The position numbers and the translations under genes are program-made. This document shows, piece after piece, positions 3,648 to 44,644 of a stretch of DNA of 57,208 nucleotides (the stretch's first letter is position 1; every line of letters begins with the position of its first letter). A model generated the notes under the pieces. The model did not search any database, had not been told where the DNA came from, and saw only the letters and a program-made list of their open reading frames with translations. The stretch is from a virus. Location: positions 1-57,208 of IMG/VR virus record IMGVR_UViG_3300013093_000054; one strand, written 5' to 3'.

Positions 3648-3657
3648 GGAGGCGTAA

Positions 3658-4287
3658 GTGGGATACGCTTCTAAATCGGGACGGGCGAGGACATCTGCCA
3701 GTAACCCGCAGGCGTTTGGCGTTTGCGATCGCTGCGGCATTTGGACAAACCATAATAGATTATCCTGGCAATATGACTGGCGTGGCGCTAGTCTGATGAA
3801 TATTCGCGTTCTTGTCTGTGACCGATGCCTTGATACGCCACAGCAACAGCTTCGAGCAATTATCGTCCCAGCCGATCCTACAGCTATTGAGCAGCCAAGA
3901 ACTGAGCCATTTGTCTACGACGAGACCAATAACCGTTACACAAGCGGCCAGAATACGATAGACCCCAATACGGGTATTCCTATTATTGGCGGCGATAATC
4001 GTATTACGCAAGACAGCCAAGATCGCGTTACTCAACAGACTGGCGAAGCTCCAGGCGGATTAAATCAGCTACCTGGCACCGATTGGGCTGTTCCTGCTGT
4101 TATCTATAATAATACTGAGATAGGTTTGCCCTATAATACAGGCGTTGTCCCGTTTACTGGCCCTCTTTCTCCGCCGTATAATTTTGTCGATCAGTGGAAC
4201 AACCAATGGCAATTTGGTATGAGAACTGGATCATACTGGTCTAATACCACAAGTGCTTTTGTGACATGGACGTCGAACATTCTGTAA
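3658..4287 (+). CDS. Virion-associated protein with a Cys4 zinc-ribbon motif
   Basis: 209 residues, GTG start preceded by a strong AAGGAGG five bases upstream. Near the N-terminus CDRCGIW and, about 30 residues later, CDRCLDTPQQ give two CxxC knuckles, a probable structural zinc site. The rest is Pro/Asn/Thr-rich with few helices and ends in an aromatic segment (WNNQWQFGMRTGSYW). I do not recognise a named family. Its position between the adaptor and fibre genes suggests a minor virion or tail component. Confidence 0.55.
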   Translation: MGYASKSGRARTSASNPQAFGVCDRCGIWTNHNRLSWQYDWRGASLMNIRVLVCDRCLDTPQQQLRAIIVPADPTAIEQPRTEPFVYDETNNRYTSGQNTIDPNTGIPIIGGDNRITQDSQDRVTQQTGEAPGGLNQLPGTDWAVPAVIYNNTEIGLPYNTGVVPFTGPLSPPYNFVDQWNNQWQFGMRTGSYWSNTTSAFVTWTSNIL

Positions 4288-9800: not shown

Positions 9801-12651
9801 TTATACAGGGCCAATTGGTGCAACAGGTTATACCGGTTATACGGGCGATACAGGTTATACGGGCCCTCAAGGGGCCACTGGCTATACTGGTTACACGGGA
9901 CCTCAAGGGGCGACTGGTTATACTGGTTACACAGGCCCGGTTGGCCCAACAGGATACACAGGCTATACTGGGTATACAGGTTACACAGGCACAACTGGTT
10001 ATACAGGTTATACGGGCTATACCGGTTACACAGGTATCCAAGGACCAACTGGACCAGGTGGCGCTGTCGCTTATTGGGGTTCGTTCTGGGATACAACAAC
10101 CCAGACAATCGCTAGCACGACAACTGCTTATCCGATTACGTTCAATTCTTTTGATCCTAACAGTAACCAAGTTACTATTGTATCAGGAAGCCAAATCACA
10201 TTTGCGCAGGCTGGAACATATAATATTCAATTTTCGATACAGTTTGCCAATACTGATAGCGCTCAGATTTGGAATGCCAATACATGGCTGCGCAAAAACG
10301 GCGTAAATATTCCAGATTCAAACAGCTACTGGACGATAACGAGCAAGCATGGCGGCACAAATGGTCAGATAGTTGGCGCTGCTAACTTCATTGTTGAGGT
10401 CACAGCTGGTCAATATATTGAACTTTACTGGCAGGCAGAAAGCACATCTGTCATCTTGGAAACTGTCCCTGCTGGAACGACCCCAACAACGCCAGTAAGC
10501 CCTAGCGTTATTTTGACAGCTACGCCAATCGTTTCAACGATTATTGGGCCAACTGGTTATACGGGCTATACGGGATACACTGGCTATACAGGCGCAGCAT
10601 CTACTGTAACCGGTCCAACTGGTTATACAGGGTTCACCGGCCCTCAAGGCCCAACTGGATACACTGGTTATACAGGACCTCAAGGCGCTACTGGTTACAC
10701 TGGTTACACAGGTCCTCAAGGAGCTACTGGTTATACGGGTTATACTGGGGCCATAGGCCCAACAGGATATACTGGGTATACAGGCCCACAGGGCCCAACT
10801 GGTTACACTGGGTATACGGGGCCAATTGGTGCGACAGGCTATACAGGCTACACAGGCTACACAGGCCCAACTGGCTATACGGGCTATACAGGCGATATTG
10901 GTCCGACTGGATACACAGGATATACTGGGCCCGGTATTACAGGTCCAACTGGCTATACTGGCTACACAGGTCCAGGCATTACTGGACCGACTGGTTATAC
11001 TGGCTACACTGGTTATACGGGACCAGGTGTAACGGGCCCAACTGGTTATACTGGTTATACTGGCTACACTGGGCCTCAAGGCGCTACTGGCTATACTGGA
11101 TATACCGGCGCTACTGGCCCAACTGGCTACACTGGTTATACGGGACCAGGTGTAACTGGACCAACTGGTTATACTGGTTACACCGGGTATACTGGTTACA
11201 CAGGCCCGGGCGTAACGGGACCAACCGGATATACTGGCTATACTGGTTACACAGGATACACTGGTTACACAGGCCCACAGTTAATAACGATTAATTCAAC
11301 GCCAATTGGAAGTGGCACGTCTGGTCGTATTCTTTATGACAATGCTGGCACTGTAGGCGAGCTTGTTATACCGCTTTCTATCTCAAATGGCGGAACAAAT
11401 AACTCATCTGCTTATACTGCTGGATCTGTTATATTTTCTAATGGCACTTCATTAACCCAGGATAATGCAACTTTCTTTTGGGATGACACGAATACGCAAT
11501 TGTCAGTTGGAACTAATGTAACAGCTACTACGCCAGCGAATATTCAGCTGCAAATATTTAAAGACGCATTAATTAATGGCATGACTGTCGGTCTTGGAAC
11601 TGCGCAGCTAACGACAAATACCGCAGTTGGCTATCAAACACTTTTAGGTGTGACAACAGGAGCTTCCAACACAGCTGTTGGTTATCAGGTTCTTAAAGTA
11701 AATACTATTGGAACTCAGAATACGGGTGTTGGAAACCTTGTTCTATCTGCCAATACGACAGGAAACTACAACGCTGCTGTCGGTCAGGCTTGTCTGTTTA
11801 AGAATACGACCGGATCTCAAAATTCAGCATTAGGTCAAGGTTGTCTTTTCAATAATACCACAGGTGCCAGTAATTCTGCGATTGGTGGGTCTGCGTTATT
11901 CAACAATTCTACAGGCTCTAACAACACAGCCCTTGGCCAAGCGGCTATGAACACTAATACCACGGGGGCCACAAATACAGCTGTTGGCACGTCGTCTCTC
12001 TATTCTAATACAATTGGAACAAACAACTGCGCCGTTGGTTATCAGGCTCTTTATTTTAACACTACCGGAACACCCAACACAGGCGTTGGAACGTTAGCCC
12101 TTAGAGCAAACCAGACTGGAACAAATAACGTCGCTGTTGGTGATAGTGCATTAACAGCATGCACTGGAAATCAAAATACATCTCTTGGTTCCAGCGCTGG
12201 TTCTTCGGTTACGAGTGGTTCAAATTTAACAATAATTGGCTATAATGCCCAAGCAACATCTGCGACTGCTACTAACGAAATCACTCTTGGAAATTCGTCA
12301 GTTGCAACTCTACGTTGTCAAACTACAACTATTACATCTCTTTCTGACGCAAGGGATAAAACTGAAATAAGAGTTTTACTGGCTGGAATTAATTTTATAA
12401 AAACACTTAAGCCTGTGTCGTTTATATGGTCAATGCGCGATGGAGGTAAGGTTGGTATAGAAGATTCTGGTTTTATTGCTCAAGATTTACTTGAGTCCCA
12501 AAATATTACTGGAATTAAAATTCCTGGTCTTGTTTACGATGTAAATCCAGATAGACTCGAGGCTTCTTACGGCAAGCTTATACCTGTATTAGTAAAGGCA
12601 GTTAAAGAGCTGATCGAAGAAATTGATGCCTTAAAAGGGAAAGTTGGCTGA
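6883..12651 (+). CDS. Giant collagen-like tail fibre with C-terminal S74 intramolecular chaperone
   Basis: 1922 residues. The N-terminal about 45 residues ([35 protein letters not shown]) are probably the virion anchor. Six blocks of collagen triplets dominated by [10 protein letters not shown] follow, separated by folded inserts: three related Trp-rich inserts (about 118-167, 438-488, 879-928), a beta module (575-688) and a C1q-like domain (1062-1218). After the last block come a fibre module, YadA-head-like NTAVGYxxL repeats (about 1580-1775) and an S74 domain whose SDARDK (Ser1821, Lys1826) matches the self-cleavage Ser-x4-Lys pair. The chaperone would trimerise the fibre and release itself. 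Confidence 0.85.
7021..11281 (+). repeat. Collagen-triplet repeat blocks ([10 protein letters not shown])
   Basis: Six blocks at about 7021-7239, 7396-8190, 8362-8598, 8950-9522, 9678-10062 and 10545-11281 encode Gly-x-y triplets, mostly GPT and GYT, with recurring caps GAAST/DV and GPQGAT. Every glycine is kept, while wobble bases vary (ggt/ggc/gga, act/aca/acc), so the DNA is much less repetitive than the protein. Minus-strand open frames over these blocks are by-products of the repeat. Confidence 0.9.
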
Positions 12652-12652
12652 T

Positions 12653-12946
12653 ATGTCTATTAAAAAAACAATAAAAGCAGCGCGCCCGACCGTCAACTCT
12701 GTTTCCGGATATGTTTTAAGTTGGGATGTTGATATTACTTTAAGAGAAGGTAGCTTTGAATATAATTACAACTATTCAAAAGATGTTGCTAATTTAAATA
12801 AAATACCATCTGATTTCTCTGAACCAGAAGTTTTAGGATATATGCCAGAAGGTCTGGAAGATGTATTTAAACACCACAAAGAATTTTTGGGTGGAAATAA
12901 TTCTTCTGAAACAATTATTGTCGATGATTTTACGTTTAGCAATTAA
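12653..12946 (+). CDS. Small unknown protein following the giant fibre
   Basis: 97 residues from the ATG two bases after the fibre stop. The N-terminus (MSIKKTIKAARP) is basic and the middle has amphipathic strands rich in Tyr/Asn. No family is recognised. Tight coupling to the fibre gene and its place before the glycosyltransferase island suggest an assembly factor or a partner of fibre modification, which is inference only. Confidence 0.5.
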   Translation: MSIKKTIKAARPTVNSVSGYVLSWDVDITLREGSFEYNYNYSKDVANLNKIPSDFSEPEVLGYMPEGLEDVFKHHKEFLGGNNSSETIIVDDFTFSN

Positions 12947-12955
12947 TAGGAGTAA

Positions 12956-13627
12956 ATTGAAATTCGCACCGTTCTTCTTTCAGCGCCATCTTATGACGGC
13001 AAAGTAAACGTATGGCACTGCACGTCTTTAACTGAAACGGTAAAAATAGGTATATCAAAAAATATTAACATTGTGGCTGTTTATATGTCTTACGATGCCT
13101 TAGTTCAAAGGGCTCGTAACGATATATTTAAACTAGCATATGATAATGATGTTGATGATCTGGTTTTTATCGATTGCGATCAAGATTGGCAACCGGAAGA
13201 TTTTTTTAAGCTTCTTTCACATGATGTCCCAATTGTTGCCGCACCAGTCATAAAAAAATCTGACGACCCTCAATATAATGTAAAATTATTAGGAAATTAT
13301 ATTATAAATGAAAAAGGGTTGGTTGAGGTAGACGGAGTTGGCACTGGATTTATGAGAATAAGAAAAGATGCTATTAAAAAAATGTGGTCTGCCTCAAGTG
13401 AATATCGTGAAAGACATAAGGAAGATTCGTCTCGTATGGTATTTGAAGTAAAAGTTATGAATGGGGAAATCTGGGCAGAAGACATTGTTTTTTGTGATAA
13501 ATGGATTAAATTGGGCGGTAAGGTATATATTGACCCATCCATTAATTGCGGCCATTCAGGTGAAAAAAGATGGGTAGGGAATTTTTCGTCTTGGATCAAG
13601 ACCTTAAACTTAAAAGGAGGGGTGTAA
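12956..13627 (+). CDS. GT-A glycosyltransferase-like protein, probable non-canonical ATT start
   Basis: From 12956 the frame encodes 223 residues. The first in-frame GTG is not until 13073, which would delete the first beta-alpha unit (IRTVLLSAPSYDGKVNVWH). A TAA at 12953-12955 bounds the frame, and AGGAG sits at 12948-12952, so the ATT at 12956 is the earliest possible start, at short spacing. The core contains a nucleotide-sugar DxD motif in LVFIDCDQDW and an acceptor-side region GVGTGFMRIRKDAI followed by EDIVFCDKW. It resembles small family-2/Anp1-type GT-A enzymes. First of four glycosyltransferase-like genes here. Confidence 0.7.
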   Translation: MEIRTVLLSAPSYDGKVNVWHCTSLTETVKIGISKNINIVAVYMSYDALVQRARNDIFKLAYDNDVDDLVFIDCDQDWQPEDFFKLLSHDVPIVAAPVIKKSDDPQYNVKLLGNYIINEKGLVEVDGVGTGFMRIRKDAIKKMWSASSEYRERHKEDSSRMVFEVKVMNGEIWAEDIVFCDKWIKLGGKVYIDPSINCGHSGEKRWVGNFSSWIKTLNLKGGV

Positions 13628-13628
13628 A

Positions 13629-13817
13629 ATGGAAAACGAAATTATCAAGCTGGAGTTAACACTAGGTCAGGTTAACCACATTTTGGCTGTGTTAGGTGAG
13701 GCATCTTTTGTAAAAGCCGCAGACCCCGTAAACTGGATACGCGAGCAGGCGATTCCGCAGCATGCGGAAATAGCTAAGAAATATCCTGCTGAAGAAATAG
13801 CGCAAGCAGCAGAATAA
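13629..13817 (+). CDS. Small conserved-type phage protein, unknown
   Basis: 62 residues, AAGGAGGGG just upstream. Sequence shows an N-terminal amphipathic helix/strand (IIKLELTLGQVNHILAVLGEASF) and an Ala/Glu-rich tail. The 'L.L.QVN.IL..L' pattern is seen in many small phage proteins of unknown role. Sits inside the glycan island, one base after the preceding stop. Confidence 0.6.
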   Translation: MENEIIKLELTLGQVNHILAVLGEASFVKAADPVNWIREQAIPQHAEIAKKYPAEEIAQAAE

Positions 13818-22469: not shown

Positions 22470-22847
22470 ATGGATGATCAAGCAAAGATGTTTGTGGGGC
22501 CCATCCATAGTGATGTGGCGGGACGGACAGACCATTTACCCTGCAATGTGCCCTCCGGTTCTTACGTCATTCCTGCGGATATAATTTCCGGTATGGGCGA
22601 GGGGAATACGATGAATGGCTTTAAAATAGCCAATCGTCTATGGGGTAAACAGAAACTTTATGGAGATGAAACGCCTACGGAAGTTGTCGTTGCTGGTGGT
22701 GAATATGTGATTTGCCCACATTCTGTTAGAGATATCGGTGGCGGAGATATAAACGAAGGCCATAATCAGCTAGATAGATTTGTTAAGTTGGCTAGGGAAG
22801 ATTTAATTAAAACTCTGAAAAATCTTCCAGGGCCGCGTCGGGACTAA
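22470..22847 (+). CDS. Conserved-type virion accessory protein
   Basis: 125 residues. Key segments are PCNVPSGSYVIPADIISGMGEGNT and GGEYVICPHSVRDIGGGDINEGHNQLD. This arrangement is familiar from hypothetical proteins next to internal virion genes in alphaproteobacterial phages, but no function is established. Lies in the run tail hub, this gene, acetyltransferase-like gene, ejection proteins. Confidence 0.55.
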   Translation: MDDQAKMFVGPIHSDVAGRTDHLPCNVPSGSYVIPADIISGMGEGNTMNGFKIANRLWGKQKLYGDETPTEVVVAGGEYVICPHSVRDIGGGDINEGHNQLDRFVKLAREDLIKTLKNLPGPRRD

Positions 22848-34081: not shown

Positions 34082-34274
34082 CTGTCTTTTCCTTTTTAAC
34101 TGGGTAAACCGTTATCTCTATTTCTGGATCTACAGGTTCACCTTCTCCCCGCCAAACATACAGGCTGGCGTAGCAGGCGTGTGGAAGCGGTAGATAAGAC
34201 TCAAACTCCCATCCTAATCTCTCAAAGTCTTTTTCCTTCGAGAAAGGCACATACCTGTAAAACTTCTCTGTCAT
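34074..34274 (-). CDS. Small unknown protein
   Basis: 66 residues, aromatic-rich beta-type (FYRYVPFSKEKDFERLGWEFESY, HACYASLYVWRGEG). Reads like a small 'F.R.GW.' phage protein. Shares one base with the DnaA-domain gene stop upstream. No function known. Confidence 0.55.
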   Translation of the reverse strand: MTEKFYRYVPFSKEKDFERLGWEFESYLPLPHACYASLYVWRGEGEPVDPEIEITVYPVKKEKTDE

Positions 34275-34630
34275 TACGCCACCTTGTAAATCGGCTGTAT
34301 TGGGAAGATCGTTTTCGGTGGCATCATATCATCATTTTTATCGTAATTTGGAATTTTCATTTTAACTTTAGGAGGGTCCCAACGGCGCTCTTCGATAGGC
34401 ATGGACTCAATGCGCTTAACGCCATGCAATACGCTGGTATGATCTCTGTTCCCAAAATATCTGCCTATGGCGGGGTAAGAAAAACCCGTCTCAATCTTTG
34501 CTCGCCACATACAGTAATGACGCAAGTGGCATAATTCATGTGTTCTTTTTTCACCAGTAATGTCTGACGCAGGAACGCCGGTTCTTTCAGACTCTTGGCG
34601 GATTATGTCCATAACTTTTACTTTTCGCAT
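34274..34630 (-). CDS. DnaA domain IV-like DNA-binding protein
   Basis: 118 residues from the ATG at 34630 (GAGG five bases upstream). Residues about 1-85 match the DnaA C-terminal DNA-binding domain: a helix start VMDIIRQESERTGVPASDITGEKR, then HLRHYCMWRAK and YPAIGRYFGNRDHTSVLHGVKRI with the DHTSVLH signature that contacts the DnaA box. There is no AAA+ domain, so it may bind origin-like sites or compete with host DnaA. Preceded by a terminator-like palindrome. Confidence 0.75.
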   Translation of the reverse strand: MRKVKVMDIIRQESERTGVPASDITGEKRTHELCHLRHYCMWRAKIETGFSYPAIGRYFGNRDHTSVLHGVKRIESMPIEERRWDPPKVKMKIPNYDKNDDMMPPKTIFPIQPIYKVA

Positions 34631-34639
34631 CTCAACCTC

Positions 34640-34667
34640 AATAAAATAAGGGGGAGATATCTCCCCC
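34640..34667 (-). terminator. Perfect 18-bp palindrome with downstream T-rich tract
   Basis: GGGGGAGATATCTCCCCC at 34650-34667 is a perfect dyad. Read leftward it is followed by TTATTTTATT, so it fits an intrinsic terminator for the DUF6378 gene. The DnaA-like gene starts within 20 bases, so it could act as an attenuator between two operon genes. Confidence 0.65.
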
Positions 34668-34675
34668 ATAAAGTA

Positions 34676-40157: not shown

Positions 40158-41291
40158 ATGCGCGAATACGATATTCACTCACTATCTTTGATATTTCCTC
40201 CAATGAGTAAAGGTGATTTTGATCAACTTGCTTCTGATATATCTTCAAACGGTTTGCTTGAACCGATTACTCTTTATGAGGATCAAATACTTGATGGCCG
40301 TAATAGATATAGAGCTTGTGTTAATACGGGTGTTTCTCCAAAGTTTGTAGATTACGAAGGTGATGATCCTCTTACATTTGTCATTTCAAAAAATTTATCC
40401 CGCCGCCATTTAGATGAATCTCAACGTGCGATGGTTGCCGCTCGTTTAGCAAACATGAAACAGCATTCTAATCAATATAATAATGGTCAGGCAAATTTGC
40501 CGGACCACATTTCTCAAAAGAATGCAGCTGAAAAATTAAATGTCGGAGATAGATCCGTTCGCAGTGCTAGAAAAGTTATCGAAAGCGGCGACAAGAATTT
40601 AATTCAGGCAGTAGAAAATGGATCAATAGCTGTATCAGTTGCTGAAAAGATTGCTCGCCTTGATCCAGAAGAAAGAGAGCAAGTTATATCTGCATCTCGT
40701 CCAGAACAGGCGATTAAAAAAGCTACGCGTCAAAAGAAAGAAGTTGAGTTGGCGCAACGTCAAACTGCTTTACCGCAAAAAAAATACGGCGTTATTTATG
40801 CAGATCCTGAATGGAAGTTTGAAACATTTTCTGAAAATGGCATGGACCGTTCAGCCGATAATCATTACCCAACAAGCGTAACTGATGATATTTGCCAACG
40901 TCCTGTTTGGGAAATAGCCGCAGAAGATAGCGTTCTATTTCTTTGGGCAACAGTGCCAATGATTAAGGATGCCTTTAAAGTAATGGACGCATGGGGATTC
41001 ACTTATAAGTCTCAAGCCATATGGGTAAAGGACCGTATAGGAACAGGTTATTGGTTCCGTAATAAACATGAAATACTTCTTGTTGGCACTAAAGGTAAAA
41101 TACCCGCGCCAGCAATGGGTGATCAATTTAATTCAATAATTGAAGCACCTCTTGGCGCACATAGTGAAAAGCCAAAAGTTTTTCATGAAATGATTGAAGC
41201 ATATTTCCCAACACTTCCAAAAATAGAATTAAACGCGAGAGATGCGCGTGAAGGTTGGGATATTTGGGGCTATGAAGCTCCAATAAAATAA
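40158..41291 (+). CDS. ParB domain fused to MT-A70-family DNA adenine methyltransferase
   Basis: 377 residues. The N-terminal about 200 residues are a ParB/Noc-like domain (LLEPITLYEDQILDGRNRYRAC, LSRRHLDESQRAMVAARLA, VRSARKVIESGD). The C-terminal part is MT-A70: VIYADPEWKFETFSENGMDRSADNHYPTS with DPEW at the catalytic motif instead of the common DPPW, then WATVPMIKDAFKVMDAWGFTYKSQAIWVK and ELNARDAREGWDIWG. Likely an N6-adenine methyltransferase whose site choice may come from the ParB part. Confidence 0.8.
   Translation: MREYDIHSLSLIFPPMSKGDFDQLASDISSNGLLEPITLYEDQILDGRNRYRACVNTGVSPKFVDYEGDDPLTFVISKNLSRRHLDESQRAMVAARLANMKQHSNQYNNGQANLPDHISQKNAAEKLNVGDRSVRSARKVIESGDKNLIQAVENGSIAVSVAEKIARLDPEEREQVISASRPEQAIKKATRQKKEVELAQRQTALPQKKYGVIYADPEWKFETFSENGMDRSADNHYPTSVTDDICQRPVWEIAAEDSVLFLWATVPMIKDAFKVMDAWGFTYKSQAIWVKDRIGTGYWFRNKHEILLVGTKGKIPAPAMGDQFNSIIEAPLGAHSEKPKVFHEMIEAYFPTLPKIELNARDAREGWDIWGYEAPIK
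40489..40512 (+). repeat. 24-bp direct repeat, copy 1 (inside the methyltransferase gene)
   Basis: Identical over 24 bases to 43924-43947 and containing the 12-bp perfect palindrome GGCAAATTTGCC. Here it encodes QANLPDH within the ParB-domain linker. Confidence 0.8.
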
Positions 41292-41387: not shown

Positions 41388-43652
41388 ATGACTGAAGAAT
41401 TTAATGAATTACCTTTAGAATGTCAATCATTTGATGATGAGTTTGCATCACTCATTGACTATGCAAAAATGTATAGAAGTCTGGGACTGCAAGTTGTGCC
41501 GGCCATATCGCCATCAAGCGGCAAGAACTGGAAAAGACCTGCCCTTCCCACCTGGAAAGAGTTTACACATCAGCTTGCAAGCGATGAACAGTTTGAACAG
41601 TTCTTTGCAGGTCATGCTAATTTAACTAATATTGGCCTACTTACCGGCCCATGTTCTAATAACCTATTCATTGTTGATTTAGACATACACAAGAACCCTA
41701 ATGCAATGGTCTGGTGGGAAGGTATTCACGCCGACCACAATGCCGGAATTATGTCTGAGGCCCCTACCCAAAGAACGGGCGGCGGCGGCTTGCAGATGCT
41801 TTTCTTTGCTCCAAAGGGCTGGAACCCTCCAACAATCAAAACATCTATTGGCGTCGATATTAGAGGCGTTGGCGGCTTTGCGGTTGTCGCCCCTTCCCGT
41901 CATGAAGCGCAAGGAAGCGAATATGCGTGGATTGAAGGCCAAGAGCCATACACCATCCCCATTCCTGTAGCAGATACGTGGCTATGCCAGGAAGTCGACG
42001 CGCTGGCAGCTAAGTATGGCGGACACGTTACGAATGAAGCTGGCGAGAGGGTTAGGACTGAGACGCCTCAACATCAAACTGACGAATGGGGAAAGATCAT
42101 TGATGGTCGTGAAGACCGAATGTATCGCATGATCTGGAGGACAATGCTTGACCTCTACCGCGACTCTCCAATTATCCCAAGCGAAAGTGACCAAGTAAAA
42201 TTAAAAAAGGATCTATTTGATTCTTATGTTGAGTCAGTCGAGAGCCGCTTGCGTGAACCTGGAACGCCTAAGCATATGCTTCTTGAAAAAGAAGATCGCG
42301 GCATATCGATGTTTAATCTTAAATGGCGCGCTGCGGTTAAACAGTGGGATACAAAGGTAAGGGAACAGGCGGCAGAACCTTGGATCTACGACGAACATAA
42401 GCAGAACTACAATTTTAAAGAAAAAGTAGACTTCACCACCGATAACTCAGATGCCGTGAACGGAGAGGGAACACCAATCCGCCCCCCAGACCTTTTTAGA
42501 GTTTGGGACATAGATGATTTGGATAAACAACCGCCAGCTGTTTTTATATGGGATGGCATAGTTGTTGAGGGTGGATCACATTACTTTGCTGCTGCTCCAG
42601 GCATAGGGAAGACGTTTATCGGTCTTGGCCTAGCAGGAGCCATTGCGACAGGCATGGATAGCTTTCTTGGTAAGAAGGTCAATAGGCACGGGCTGGTGAT
42701 CTACATCACTACAGAGGGCTTATATGACCATAGGAAGCGTCTCAGGGCGTTTGAGAAGACGTATGGCGTGAAGGTGCCAAAAGAGAACTATCTTCTTATC
42801 CCAGATTCCATGAACCTTATGAATGAACGTGACCGCTCAAGGCTGATGCGGACATTGGCATGGGAAACAAAGATAAGAAACAAAATGCCCGTAATGGTCG
42901 TATTCGATACGGTCTCAAAAGTGACGCCTGGTGCTGACGAGAATACCCAGAAGGACACGACCCTTTTTATCAAGGCAAAGGCCGATATAAAGCAGGAGTT
43001 TAATTGCGCCGATCTTTGTATGCACCACCGTTCAAGAAATGGCGATGGGGCTATGCGTGGCTCAACAACCTATGAGGGCGAAGCAGACGGCATATACGTG
43101 TTTGAACGCGAGAAAGGATCAGAAGAACTTACCTTCACCGCTGCCAAGATTAAGGCCGCGCCAGACGGTTGGGACATGAAGGTGTTATTAAAGACCGTTG
43201 ATCTGGACAACTTAGATACGAGCCTTGTTGCCGTTCTCCCAGATGCTCCGGGTGTTAGAGAGAAACATGATTTTGGCGGCCAACAAGAGACCGGGTATAT
43301 CTTTGCAGCTGGCGTTAAGATGAGTGTGGCAGAACGAGATGAAATCCTAAGATCTGCCAAAGAAGCATGGGATGGTGGAGACCCATGGTCTATCGCTTCT
43401 CAAACAAAATATACCATGAGATATGCTCCAATATGGATTGAGAAGGTTCTTAAAAAAAGAATCAAAAACGATACACATGCTCTTTTGGTCGCCAGCGCGT
43501 TTGTCCAAATGGGCCTTTGGAGCAACGAATTAAGAAACTCAGATACAAAAATTAGAGGATTAAAGGTGTCTAATATGTATCAAAATGGCACAGAAAATAC
43601 ACGGAAGTCCTCAGATAGCAATAACAACGACTTCCGTGAGAATGAGGAATAA
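41388..43652 (+). CDS. Primase-polymerase/helicase (PrimPol plus AAA_25 ATPase)
   Basis: 754 residues, SD AAGGAAG. The N-terminal about 210 residues resemble bifunctional primase/polymerase: NLFIVDLDIHKN (metal Asp pair), a TGGGGLQMLF motif where the family usually has a His at the Gln position, and VDIRGVGGFAVVAPSRH. From about 395 comes a RecA-like ATPase: AAAPGIGKT (Walker A), VVFDTVSKVTPGADEN (Walker B) and DLCMHHRSRNGDGAMRGST. It would prime and unwind phage DNA. The gene's 3' end starts the octamer-repeat region. Confidence 0.8.
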   Translation: MTEEFNELPLECQSFDDEFASLIDYAKMYRSLGLQVVPAISPSSGKNWKRPALPTWKEFTHQLASDEQFEQFFAGHANLTNIGLLTGPCSNNLFIVDLDIHKNPNAMVWWEGIHADHNAGIMSEAPTQRTGGGGLQMLFFAPKGWNPPTIKTSIGVDIRGVGGFAVVAPSRHEAQGSEYAWIEGQEPYTIPIPVADTWLCQEVDALAAKYGGHVTNEAGERVRTETPQHQTDEWGKIIDGREDRMYRMIWRTMLDLYRDSPIIPSESDQVKLKKDLFDSYVESVESRLREPGTPKHMLLEKEDRGISMFNLKWRAAVKQWDTKVREQAAEPWIYDEHKQNYNFKEKVDFTTDNSDAVNGEGTPIRPPDLFRVWDIDDLDKQPPAVFIWDGIVVEGGSHYFAAAPGIGKTFIGLGLAGAIATGMDSFLGKKVNRHGLVIYITTEGLYDHRKRLRAFEKTYGVKVPKENYLLIPDSMNLMNERDRSRLMRTLAWETKIRNKMPVMVVFDTVSKVTPGADENTQKDTTLFIKAKADIKQEFNCADLCMHHRSRNGDGAMRGSTTYEGEADGIYVFEREKGSEELTFTAAKIKAAPDGWDMKVLLKTVDLDNLDTSLVAVLPDAPGVREKHDFGGQQETGYIFAAGVKMSVAERDEILRSAKEAWDGGDPWSIASQTKYTMRYAPIWIEKVLKKRIKNDTHALLVASAFVQMGLWSNELRNSDTKIRGLKVSNMYQNGTENTRKSSDSNNNDFRENEE

Positions 43653-43851
43653 TATCAATGCTTTACTATATTACGAAAGTCTCTAACTTCCGTAGTGGTT
43701 TGTTCCGTATCTACAGTATCAAAAACGTTATTGAAAATAAAGGGTTTTTATACGGAAGTAAGACACGGAAGTTACCCCCCTGTTCCCTACGGGAACTACC
43801 CCCCGCTCGCGCTGCGCGCCTTGAGGGCGCTCGCGCTCGCCAAATTGAAAT
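43601..43851. other. Iteron-like and GC-rich hairpin region, possible replication origin
   Basis: The octamer ACGGAAGT occurs at 43601, 43752 and 43765, and inverted at 43630 and 43686. A perfect GTTCCC-tac-GGGAAC hairpin is at 43782-43796, followed by a GC-rich tract with direct repeats of CGCTCGCGCT at 43804 and 43828. The 308 bases after the primase gene contain only overlapping frames of poor quality; a frame at 43658-43906 has an SD but a composition forced by the repeats. Strong base skew against the AT-rich flanks suggests a non-coding element. Confidence 0.5.
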
Positions 43852-43923
43852 GGCTCTTGACGGCAAAACGAAATGGCGATACGGATATCGGCATTCGTAT
43901 GATTGATATTAGTATTTTTGGTT

Positions 43924-43947
43924 AGGCAAATTTGCCGGACCACATTT
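43924..43947 (+). repeat. 24-bp direct repeat, copy 2 (upstream of the 43961 gene)
   Basis: Identical to 40489-40512, including the GGCAAATTTGCC palindrome. It ends 13 bases before the ATG of the next gene, overlapping the space where an operator would lie. Confidence 0.8.
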
Positions 43948-43960
43948 AGGATTGATATAC

Positions 43961-44644
43961 ATGGCATCCAAACCTAAAATCAAAAAGTCAAACGTCGACC
44001 GTGGCGTAGTCGTATCGGAATATACGTCGGTCCCATGGATGGTCACTCCTGGAGCTTACTTGGCTGGCAGAGCGGCGCTTGATGAGGCCGACGCGCTTGA
44101 AGTTGAGTTTGAGTTGAAGTGGGGCAGGGATCGGCTTCGGCTTCTTGTCGATACGGCTCTCAGAGAGAAGTTTGACCGGCAGCGCTACCTCACCAGCCAA
44201 GCACGGTGGACAGGCACGCTGGAGGACGTCCAACGCGAAGGTAAGCGTATGGCAGCGGCGTGGAAGGCGTTAGACAAGGCGGCGACAGCGGCAGGCGCTA
44301 AAGTCCTCGACCCTTCCATTTGGGAGGTGACGCTTGAGGATGGCACAGTCGCCACACTTGTCCGCGAACCACAACTAGCCAACCGCGTTCTGGCAGACGG
44401 CAGAAGAATTAACGTCTACACGCTGGAAGAAATAGCCAATATGATTTCGGCCTTTCCAGAAGTCGTGAAGGCAAAAAGAGAGTTTGCAGGGGCAACTGTA
44501 ACGCGGACAAAGTCTAGCGTAATTGACCCTCTTGATATGCCTACAGGCGGAAAAAACTCAGAAGGAATATTTGATGCTACTGCTCCTATAGATGGACCAC
44601 CTGAAGGCTTTGACTGGGAAAAGGGTGATGATATACCGTTTTGA
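43961..44644 (+). CDS. Unknown DNA-metabolism protein with an SSB-type C-terminal tip
   Basis: 227 residues from the ATG at 43961 (AGGA upstream). The core is helical (AGRAALDEADALEVEFELKW, DVQREGKRMAAAWKALDKA) with no recognised fold. The last residues, FDWEKGDDIPF, match the DDDIPF tip through which bacterial SSB recruits repair and replication proteins. Codon use is more GC-rich than flanking genes, a possible sign of transfer. It follows the primase and repeat region, so replication or repair is the likely context. Confidence 0.55.
   Translation: MASKPKIKKSNVDRGVVVSEYTSVPWMVTPGAYLAGRAALDEADALEVEFELKWGRDRLRLLVDTALREKFDRQRYLTSQARWTGTLEDVQREGKRMAAAWKALDKAATAAGAKVLDPSIWEVTLEDGTVATLVREPQLANRVLADGRRINVYTLEEIANMISAFPEVVKAKREFAGATVTRTKSSVIDPLDMPTGGKNSEGIFDATAPIDGPPEGFDWEKGDDIPF

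Follow-up and report, generated by a model that had tools for sequence, protein, structure and literature searches.

The repeat cluster, the IHF-consensus site and the hairpins that follow the primase-helicase gene in the virus record IMGVR_UViG_3300013093_000054 most likely constitute the start site of genome replication. Within the window, by which we mean the whole 57,208-base stretch analyzed (positions 1 to 57,208 of that record), sequence comparisons make it probable that 43601-43840 is an iteron origin read by the C-terminal domain of a one-polypeptide primase-helicase initiator, with the participation of host IHF. The original prediction had flagged a candidate origin here, and comparison supports it through the position of the region, the arrays of its relatives, the covariation of the repeats with the C-terminal domain, the IHF-consensus sites and a moderate excess of hairpins.

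The proposed initiator is encoded on the plus strand at 41388-43652 (stop codon 43650-43652) and combines a Prim-Pol domain (residues 29-189), an AAA_25 RepA-type helicase domain (369-552) and a C-terminal winged-helix-like domain (about 647-727); its Pfam matches are PF09250 (E 4.8e-17) and PF13481 (E 4.2e-26). The C-terminal domain (43326-43568, plus strand) is proposed as the iteron reader from an AF2 model and partial Mantel tests (see below). The model of the last 125 aa has a mean pLDDT of 75 and the order helix-helix-helix-strand-strand; because it matches other folds only weakly (Foldseek E 0.42 at best, Z no higher than 6.9), the winged-helix label is based on topology. Sequence searches of the PDB gave no match, whether the query was the profile of the C-terminal domain (up to E 1) or the complete helicase (up to E 0.01). 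Directly upstream of this gene, 40158-41291 codes for a protein that joins a ParB-like N-terminal part to an MT-A70 methyltransferase domain. Downstream lies gene X (226 aa; 43964-44644, plus strand), the product of which ends in DDIPF. Of the 56 representative loci, 35 have a homolog of gene X past the helicase, and 21 of the 26 homologs that were aligned terminate in [ILMV]PF, in most cases preceded by acidic residues, an ending that resembles the acidic tip of bacterial SSB. The window copy has neither a Pfam nor a PHROG match; its best fold match in the PDB has an E of 0.45, and the viral fold library yielded 13 matches at E <= 0.001, uncharacterized or unnamed except for one called terminase small subunit.

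The octamer ACGGAAGT occurs six times in the window against 1.29 copies expected window-wide, a count reached by 0 of 100 shuffles. The sole copy outside the cluster in the 57 kb is at 22677; the other five lie at 43601-43772, in both orientations and within about 170 bases, just as the original prediction had described them. These iterons, numbered 1 to 5, are located at 43601-43608 (plus), 43630-43637 (minus), 43686-43693 (minus), 43752-43759 (plus) and 43765-43772 (plus), and a degenerate copy with one mismatch, ACGAAAGT at 43673-43680 (plus), makes a sixth in the cluster. That prediction placed the region directly after the primase-helicase gene, but iterons 1 and 2 fall within the last 52 nt of the gene itself. 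Directly after the stop codon there is a strict match to the IHF consensus, TATCAATGCTTTA (WATCAANNNNTTR), at 43653-43665 (plus); it is one of three such matches in the window and had not been mentioned in the original prediction. Both this site and iteron 3 are inside an AT-rich stretch (43650-43751, 29% GC) that is the candidate unwinding region. Iterons 4 and 5 come 3' of this stretch, then a perfect hairpin with a C-tract on either side, and finally a block with a GC-rich hairpin. The region thereby displays two marks of iteron-type origins, short repeats clustered beside an initiator gene and AT-rich DNA in or next to the repeats, as well as the IHF consensus (43653-43665) of IHF-assisted origins.

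The perfect hairpin GTTCCC-TAC-GGGAAC (43782-43796), which had been correctly noticed behind the octamers, sits with its two C-tracts at 43775-43804 (plus) and has a z of -3.4 against shuffles for its 28-nt stretch; it is missing in one relative (L044). The GC-rich second hairpin (43805-43840, plus) is by itself no better than shuffles (z -0.8); in an alignment of five sequences, namely the window and four relatives, two of its pairs are changed on both sides, and some other pairs are broken. The two predicted hairpins are 15 and 36 nt long, and neither is followed by a T-run. The GC content is 74% over 43773-43841 versus 29% for 43650-43751 and 39% for 43842-43950, so that the GC-rich tract is indeed as distinct from its AT-rich flanks as had been claimed.

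An 82-aa ORF across the region (43658-43906) was rejected as a gene: against four relatives, the substitutions in its first 102 nt are spread across all codon positions (4/1/6, 11/13/12, 11/14/12 and 12/11/17 per codon position), and the frame is not kept in the relatives. The region has no Rfam match at the gathering threshold, and no tRNA genes were found in the window. We also set aside the 15-mer ACGGAAGTTACCCCC, which is present in 13 stretches with the octamer cluster in L006 and L008 only, and tandem ACGGAAGTT arrays, which were found in three stretches among viral contigs, the copy in L031 falling in a 416-aa ORF. Such tandem arrays are known from prophages.

For a survey of homologous helicases, an alignment of eight helicases was used as the query, and the best 80 of 189 viral loci were combined with 11 genome loci and two named phages to give 93 loci. 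Dropping nine with less than 250 nt of downstream sequence left 84 usable loci, which were reduced to 56 representatives at 90% identity, with the near-identical contig L042 standing in for the window. The 520 nt around the helicase stop contain the densest 7-mer cluster of the locus in 23 of the 56, against 1.0 expected. Among these representatives, drawn from the best 80 of 189 viral loci, the strongest cluster with at least six copies lies downstream of the PrimPol/AAA_25 gene in all 32 loci that have one (sign test p 8e-11, with 192 kb of sequence on offer upstream and 179 kb downstream), and in 30 of 30 without L107 and L118 (p 3e-10). The repeats in these clusters share a CGGA core in 27 of the 32 and otherwise differ between phages. 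At a threshold of at least five copies, 44 loci have a cluster, of which 42 are downstream, one upstream and one inside the gene; cluster centers range from the helicase stop to about 2.4 kb past it. Three of the 42 are doubtful, namely L107 (a coding repeat, in ORFs), L118 (TGTGGATAA-like) and L129. No downstream cluster of at least five copies was found in 14 of the 56 representatives, which include the sisters L068, L072 and L087, as well as L046, counted here with four copies.

Several of these loci show other arrangements. Downstream of the homologous helicase, L118 has a cluster of TGTGGATAA (3655-3935), instead of or beside CGGA-type repeats; we take TGTGGATAA to be a DnaA-box sequence. 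L068 and L072 are on the contigs of L038 and L039, and L087 is the same stretch as L040; downstream of these sister helicases there are C-tracts or GC-rich hairpins, and a CGGA array was not found. L038 and L039 share CGTTGATAAGTCGTTG in the downstream region in place of the CGGA array.

Arrays at the same place are also seen in Rhizobium phage RHph_N65 (GGCGGAGAT) and EBPR siphovirus 5 (GGCGGAAGTA), the helicases of which are 26% and 24% identical, respectively, and C-tracts then follow. The AAA_25 match is clear in both, and the PrimPol match is under the Pfam cut-off (E 3e-4 in RHph_N65, 4e-3 in EBPR siphovirus 5). Among the distant RepA-type homologs, six of which were chosen by hand from 40 listed of 635 records, an array was found in one, CRP-811; CRP-821 and CRP-831 were added afterwards. 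The layout of the window, with an array after a PrimPol/AAA_25 gene, is a local copy of a widespread architecture.

We then compared iteron distances with protein distances across 40 loci, excluding L107, L118 and L129, placing L058 by hand and adding L046 with its four copies. The correlation is highest for the C-terminal domain (r 0.56; 0.43-0.47 for the other three domains). In partial Mantel tests, the C-terminal domain retains a correlation of 0.37 given PrimPol (p 0.003) and 0.40 given AAA (p 0.001), whereas conversely PrimPol given the C-terminal domain falls to 0.17 (p 0.08) and AAA to 0.07 (p 0.25). Against gene X, over 27 loci, the values are 0.56 for the C-terminal domain given X (p 0.001) and 0.13 for X given the C-terminal domain (p 0.16), so that gene X is unsupported as the iteron reader. 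Iteron sequence thus follows the helicase C-terminal domain better than the other domains or gene X, and a further factor linked to it may contribute.

A concerted change of repeats is seen in two relatives, L046 (GCGGAAG/GCGGAGG) and L050 (CGGAAGC), in both of which the C-tract/GC-rich block then follows. The Roseobacter phages CRP-811 and CRP-831 provide a closer pair, with helicases that are 86.8% identical; both have an AAA_25 match and no PrimPol model at E 0.01. CRP-811 has ten copies of TTTGTAGT and none of TTTATAC, whereas CRP-831 has ten of TTTATAC and none of TTTGTAGT; the hairpin AAACCCTTTAGGGTTT is unchanged between them despite the swap of all ten repeats. The helicases are 97-100% identical over residues 376-600 and 76% over the last 145 residues; because blocks in residues 76-225 are only 77-79% identical, the tail is not the sole diverged part. 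On the origin reading, divergence of the C-terminal domain would be accompanied by a concerted change of the iterons, so that each phage lineage would have its own iteron.

The site at 43653-43665 and those in the arrays were scored with an IHF consensus that differs from the longer one printed in PMC11447400. Across 39 loci (without L107, L118 and L129), there are 11 strict sites in 17.6 kb of array windows (in 9 of the 39 loci) versus 8 in 340 kb elsewhere, that is, 0.63/kb versus 0.02/kb, a 27-fold difference. Relaxed sites number 36 in the array windows (25 of 39 loci) versus 19 elsewhere and are 37-fold denser in the former; two scrambled controls gave 1 versus 1 and 1 versus 2. Between iteron blocks an 18-mer, TAAGTCATTGAAATCATT, is found repeatedly, in many cases as two copies and in exact or near-exact form, and its most constant positions correspond to the IHF consensus read in reverse. 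This module is present in at least 120 viral stretches, as against one for the reversed control. A search with DNA only for pairs of modules recovered 25 loci (redundancy not removed). In 14 of them a helicase of this kind is encoded upstream on the same strand, within 900 nt in 13 and 6.2 kb off in one; among the 11 without it, four have less than 130 nt of upstream sequence. Of the at least 120 loci with single modules (L133-L252), 32 have the helicase, and in 29 of these the module follows it on the same strand; 87 have neither a recognized helicase nor a tRNA nearby. The repeats beside the module vary widely, for instance GTGTCGGGTT in L180, with a helicase, and CTAGTCCAA in L188, where no helicase was found. 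In one locus from the module-pair search (L266), the 18-mer is accompanied by TGAACCA repeats and a RepB_primase/DUF3987 protein. In some bacterial and viral contigs, the 18-mer or a near copy also directly abuts tRNA 3' ends (L254 Lys, L255 Met, L263 Lys, L187 Glu and L217 Cys); these copies are perhaps att flanks of integrated elements.

In the 60 nt past the last iteron, 18 of 42 loci have a hairpin of at least 6 bp, compared with 6 of 42 ahead of the first iteron (p 0.007, Fisher test); post-array hairpins beat shuffles at 0.05 in just 11 of the 42. The excess past the last iteron is moderate.

A switch in GC skew is a common, non-defining sign of an origin. Plotted cumulatively, GC skew reaches no minimum at the arrays of the window, RHph_N65 or CRP-811, and the check proposed in the original prediction therefore gave it no support; gene orientation may dominate the skew. 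The DnaA link suggested there likewise found no support: the window has no exact TTATNCACA, and 42.5-45.5 kb contains a lone one-mismatch box, at 42518, so that the DnaA boxes of a DnaA-dependent origin are lacking. A small protein with a match to the DnaA C-terminal domain (domain IV) is nevertheless encoded at 34274-34669 (minus strand).

Could the same features serve another function? Octamers that bind a phage repressor or activator, with hairpins that affect transcription and a position that reflects operon structure, would make the region an operator. The two orientations of the iterons and the mostly non-coding stretch would suit this, and IHF also serves promoters. We nonetheless regard it as unlikely, given that the iterons track the helicase C-terminal domain and not gene X, that neither hairpin leads into a T-run, and that the array keeps its position behind the helicase gene, whereas gene X is found in only 35 of the 56 loci. 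The product of 40158-41291 matches ParB-like PHROGs and might read the repeats as a parS-like partition site; yet RHph_N65 has the array with an annotated endonuclease I gene upstream of its helicase, and iteron sequence follows the helicase tail, which leaves partition a decidedly improbable function.

An attachment site (attP) combining integrase arm sites and IHF sites would account for the 18-mers, exact or nearly so, that abut tRNA 3' ends in the bacterial contigs L254, L255 and L263, and for the two among the at least 120 module loci in which it abuts a tRNA 3' end. In 118 of those loci, however, there is no tRNA within 300 nt, and in RHph_N65 the integrase gene (12621-13739) and the array (34.9-35.2 kb) are 21 kb apart, with no module copy near the integrase gene at up to four mismatches; we accordingly give attP very little credence. 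Even less probable is the insertion of a mobile element behind the helicase gene, be it palindromic, which is the alternative that the original prediction itself had offered, or REP-like. The GC-rich hairpin block is sharply unlike its flanks, as such an insertion would be, but it lies at the same place in relatives with 42-60% helicase identity, its second hairpin has two pairs changed on both sides, and blastn against phage and plasmid collections returned only short, weak matches.

The origin reading is in keeping with a known plan. In the available sections of PMC7581432, SaPI Rep and SCCmec Cch2 have a repeat-bearing origin directly after the helicase gene, the C-terminal domain of Cch2 itself is shown to bind the origin, and the SCCmec region has inverted repeats able to form hairpins. 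In the window, too, the array comes straight after the helicase gene, and the C-terminal domain, winged-helix-like in topology, is the proposed reader; however, the primase and helicase of those elements are mostly separate, 'occasionally fused' in the same sections, whereas the protein of the window unites a PrimPol with an AAA_25 RepA-type helicase. IHF is not mentioned for the SaPI Rep/Cch2 origins in those sections of PMC7581432, whereas its consensus is present here. As described in the accessible portions of PMC4234260, pRN1 ORF904 and phage BIP-1 unite PrimPol, helicase and a C-terminal winged helix in one protein, and the pRN1 origin, directly downstream of the gene, has a 100-nt stem-loop and no iterons, with an SF3 helicase. 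The one-protein plan and the downstream origin with a stem-loop are shared; the iterons, the hairpins of 15 and 36 nt and the AAA_25 RepA-type helicase set the window apart from the pRN1 type. The same portions of PMC4234260 describe phage P4 alpha as a single polypeptide that carries a Toprim-type primase, a helicase and, for binding the repeats of the origin, a winged helix. Here, too, primase and helicase share a polypeptide with a winged-helix-like domain as the proposed repeat reader, but the primase is a PrimPol in place of the Toprim type. The P4 alpha helicase also belongs to a different family. Finally, RSF1010/IncQ oriV involves a RepA helicase, iterons and short stem-loops recognized by the primase, with RepC, RepA and RepB' as separate polypeptides (PMC4234260, in part). 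The window resembles it in its RepA-type helicase, iterons and short hairpins, and differs in the fusion of helicase and primase and in a C-terminal domain as the proposed iteron reader. Literature searches by sequence string and keyword did not find a description of such an origin, and a term search of the main text of the roseophage paper PMC11288001 found neither 'iteron' nor 'repeat'. As the searches did not find the combination of a fused PrimPol/AAA_25 protein with IHF sites in phages, we rate it as apparently new within the plan known from SaPI Rep/Cch2, P4 alpha, pRN1 and RSF1010.

On the origin reading, the C-terminal domain of the 41388-43652 product would bind the ACGGAAGT iterons, as the covariation suggests, and host IHF, to which the consensus points, would bend the DNA at 43653-43665 between the iteron blocks. 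The AT-rich stretch at 43650-43751 would then melt, the helicase ring would load and, in what is the least secure step, the PrimPol domain may prime near the C-tract/hairpin. We lean somewhat toward a broader proposal, in which the window exemplifies a large, undescribed class of phage origins: a single PrimPol/RepA-type-helicase/winged-helix polypeptide would read its own iterons, which could be swapped wholesale between close relatives by a change of its winged-helix tail, and would share an IHF partner through the module TAAGTCATTGAAATCATT, which would also serve phages with other iterons.

If true, the position of the origin would be predictable, and its iteron readable, in phages with PrimPol/AAA_25 or related RepA-type helicases. 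These include many metagenomic phages and several cultured ones, namely Rhizobium phage RHph_N65 and the Roseobacter phages CRP-811, CRP-821 and CRP-831. Together, CRP-811 and CRP-831 would amount to a natural swap experiment on how the initiator tail reads the origin, and the three jobs of the RSF1010 system, namely iteron binding, helicase and primase, would be combined in one protein.
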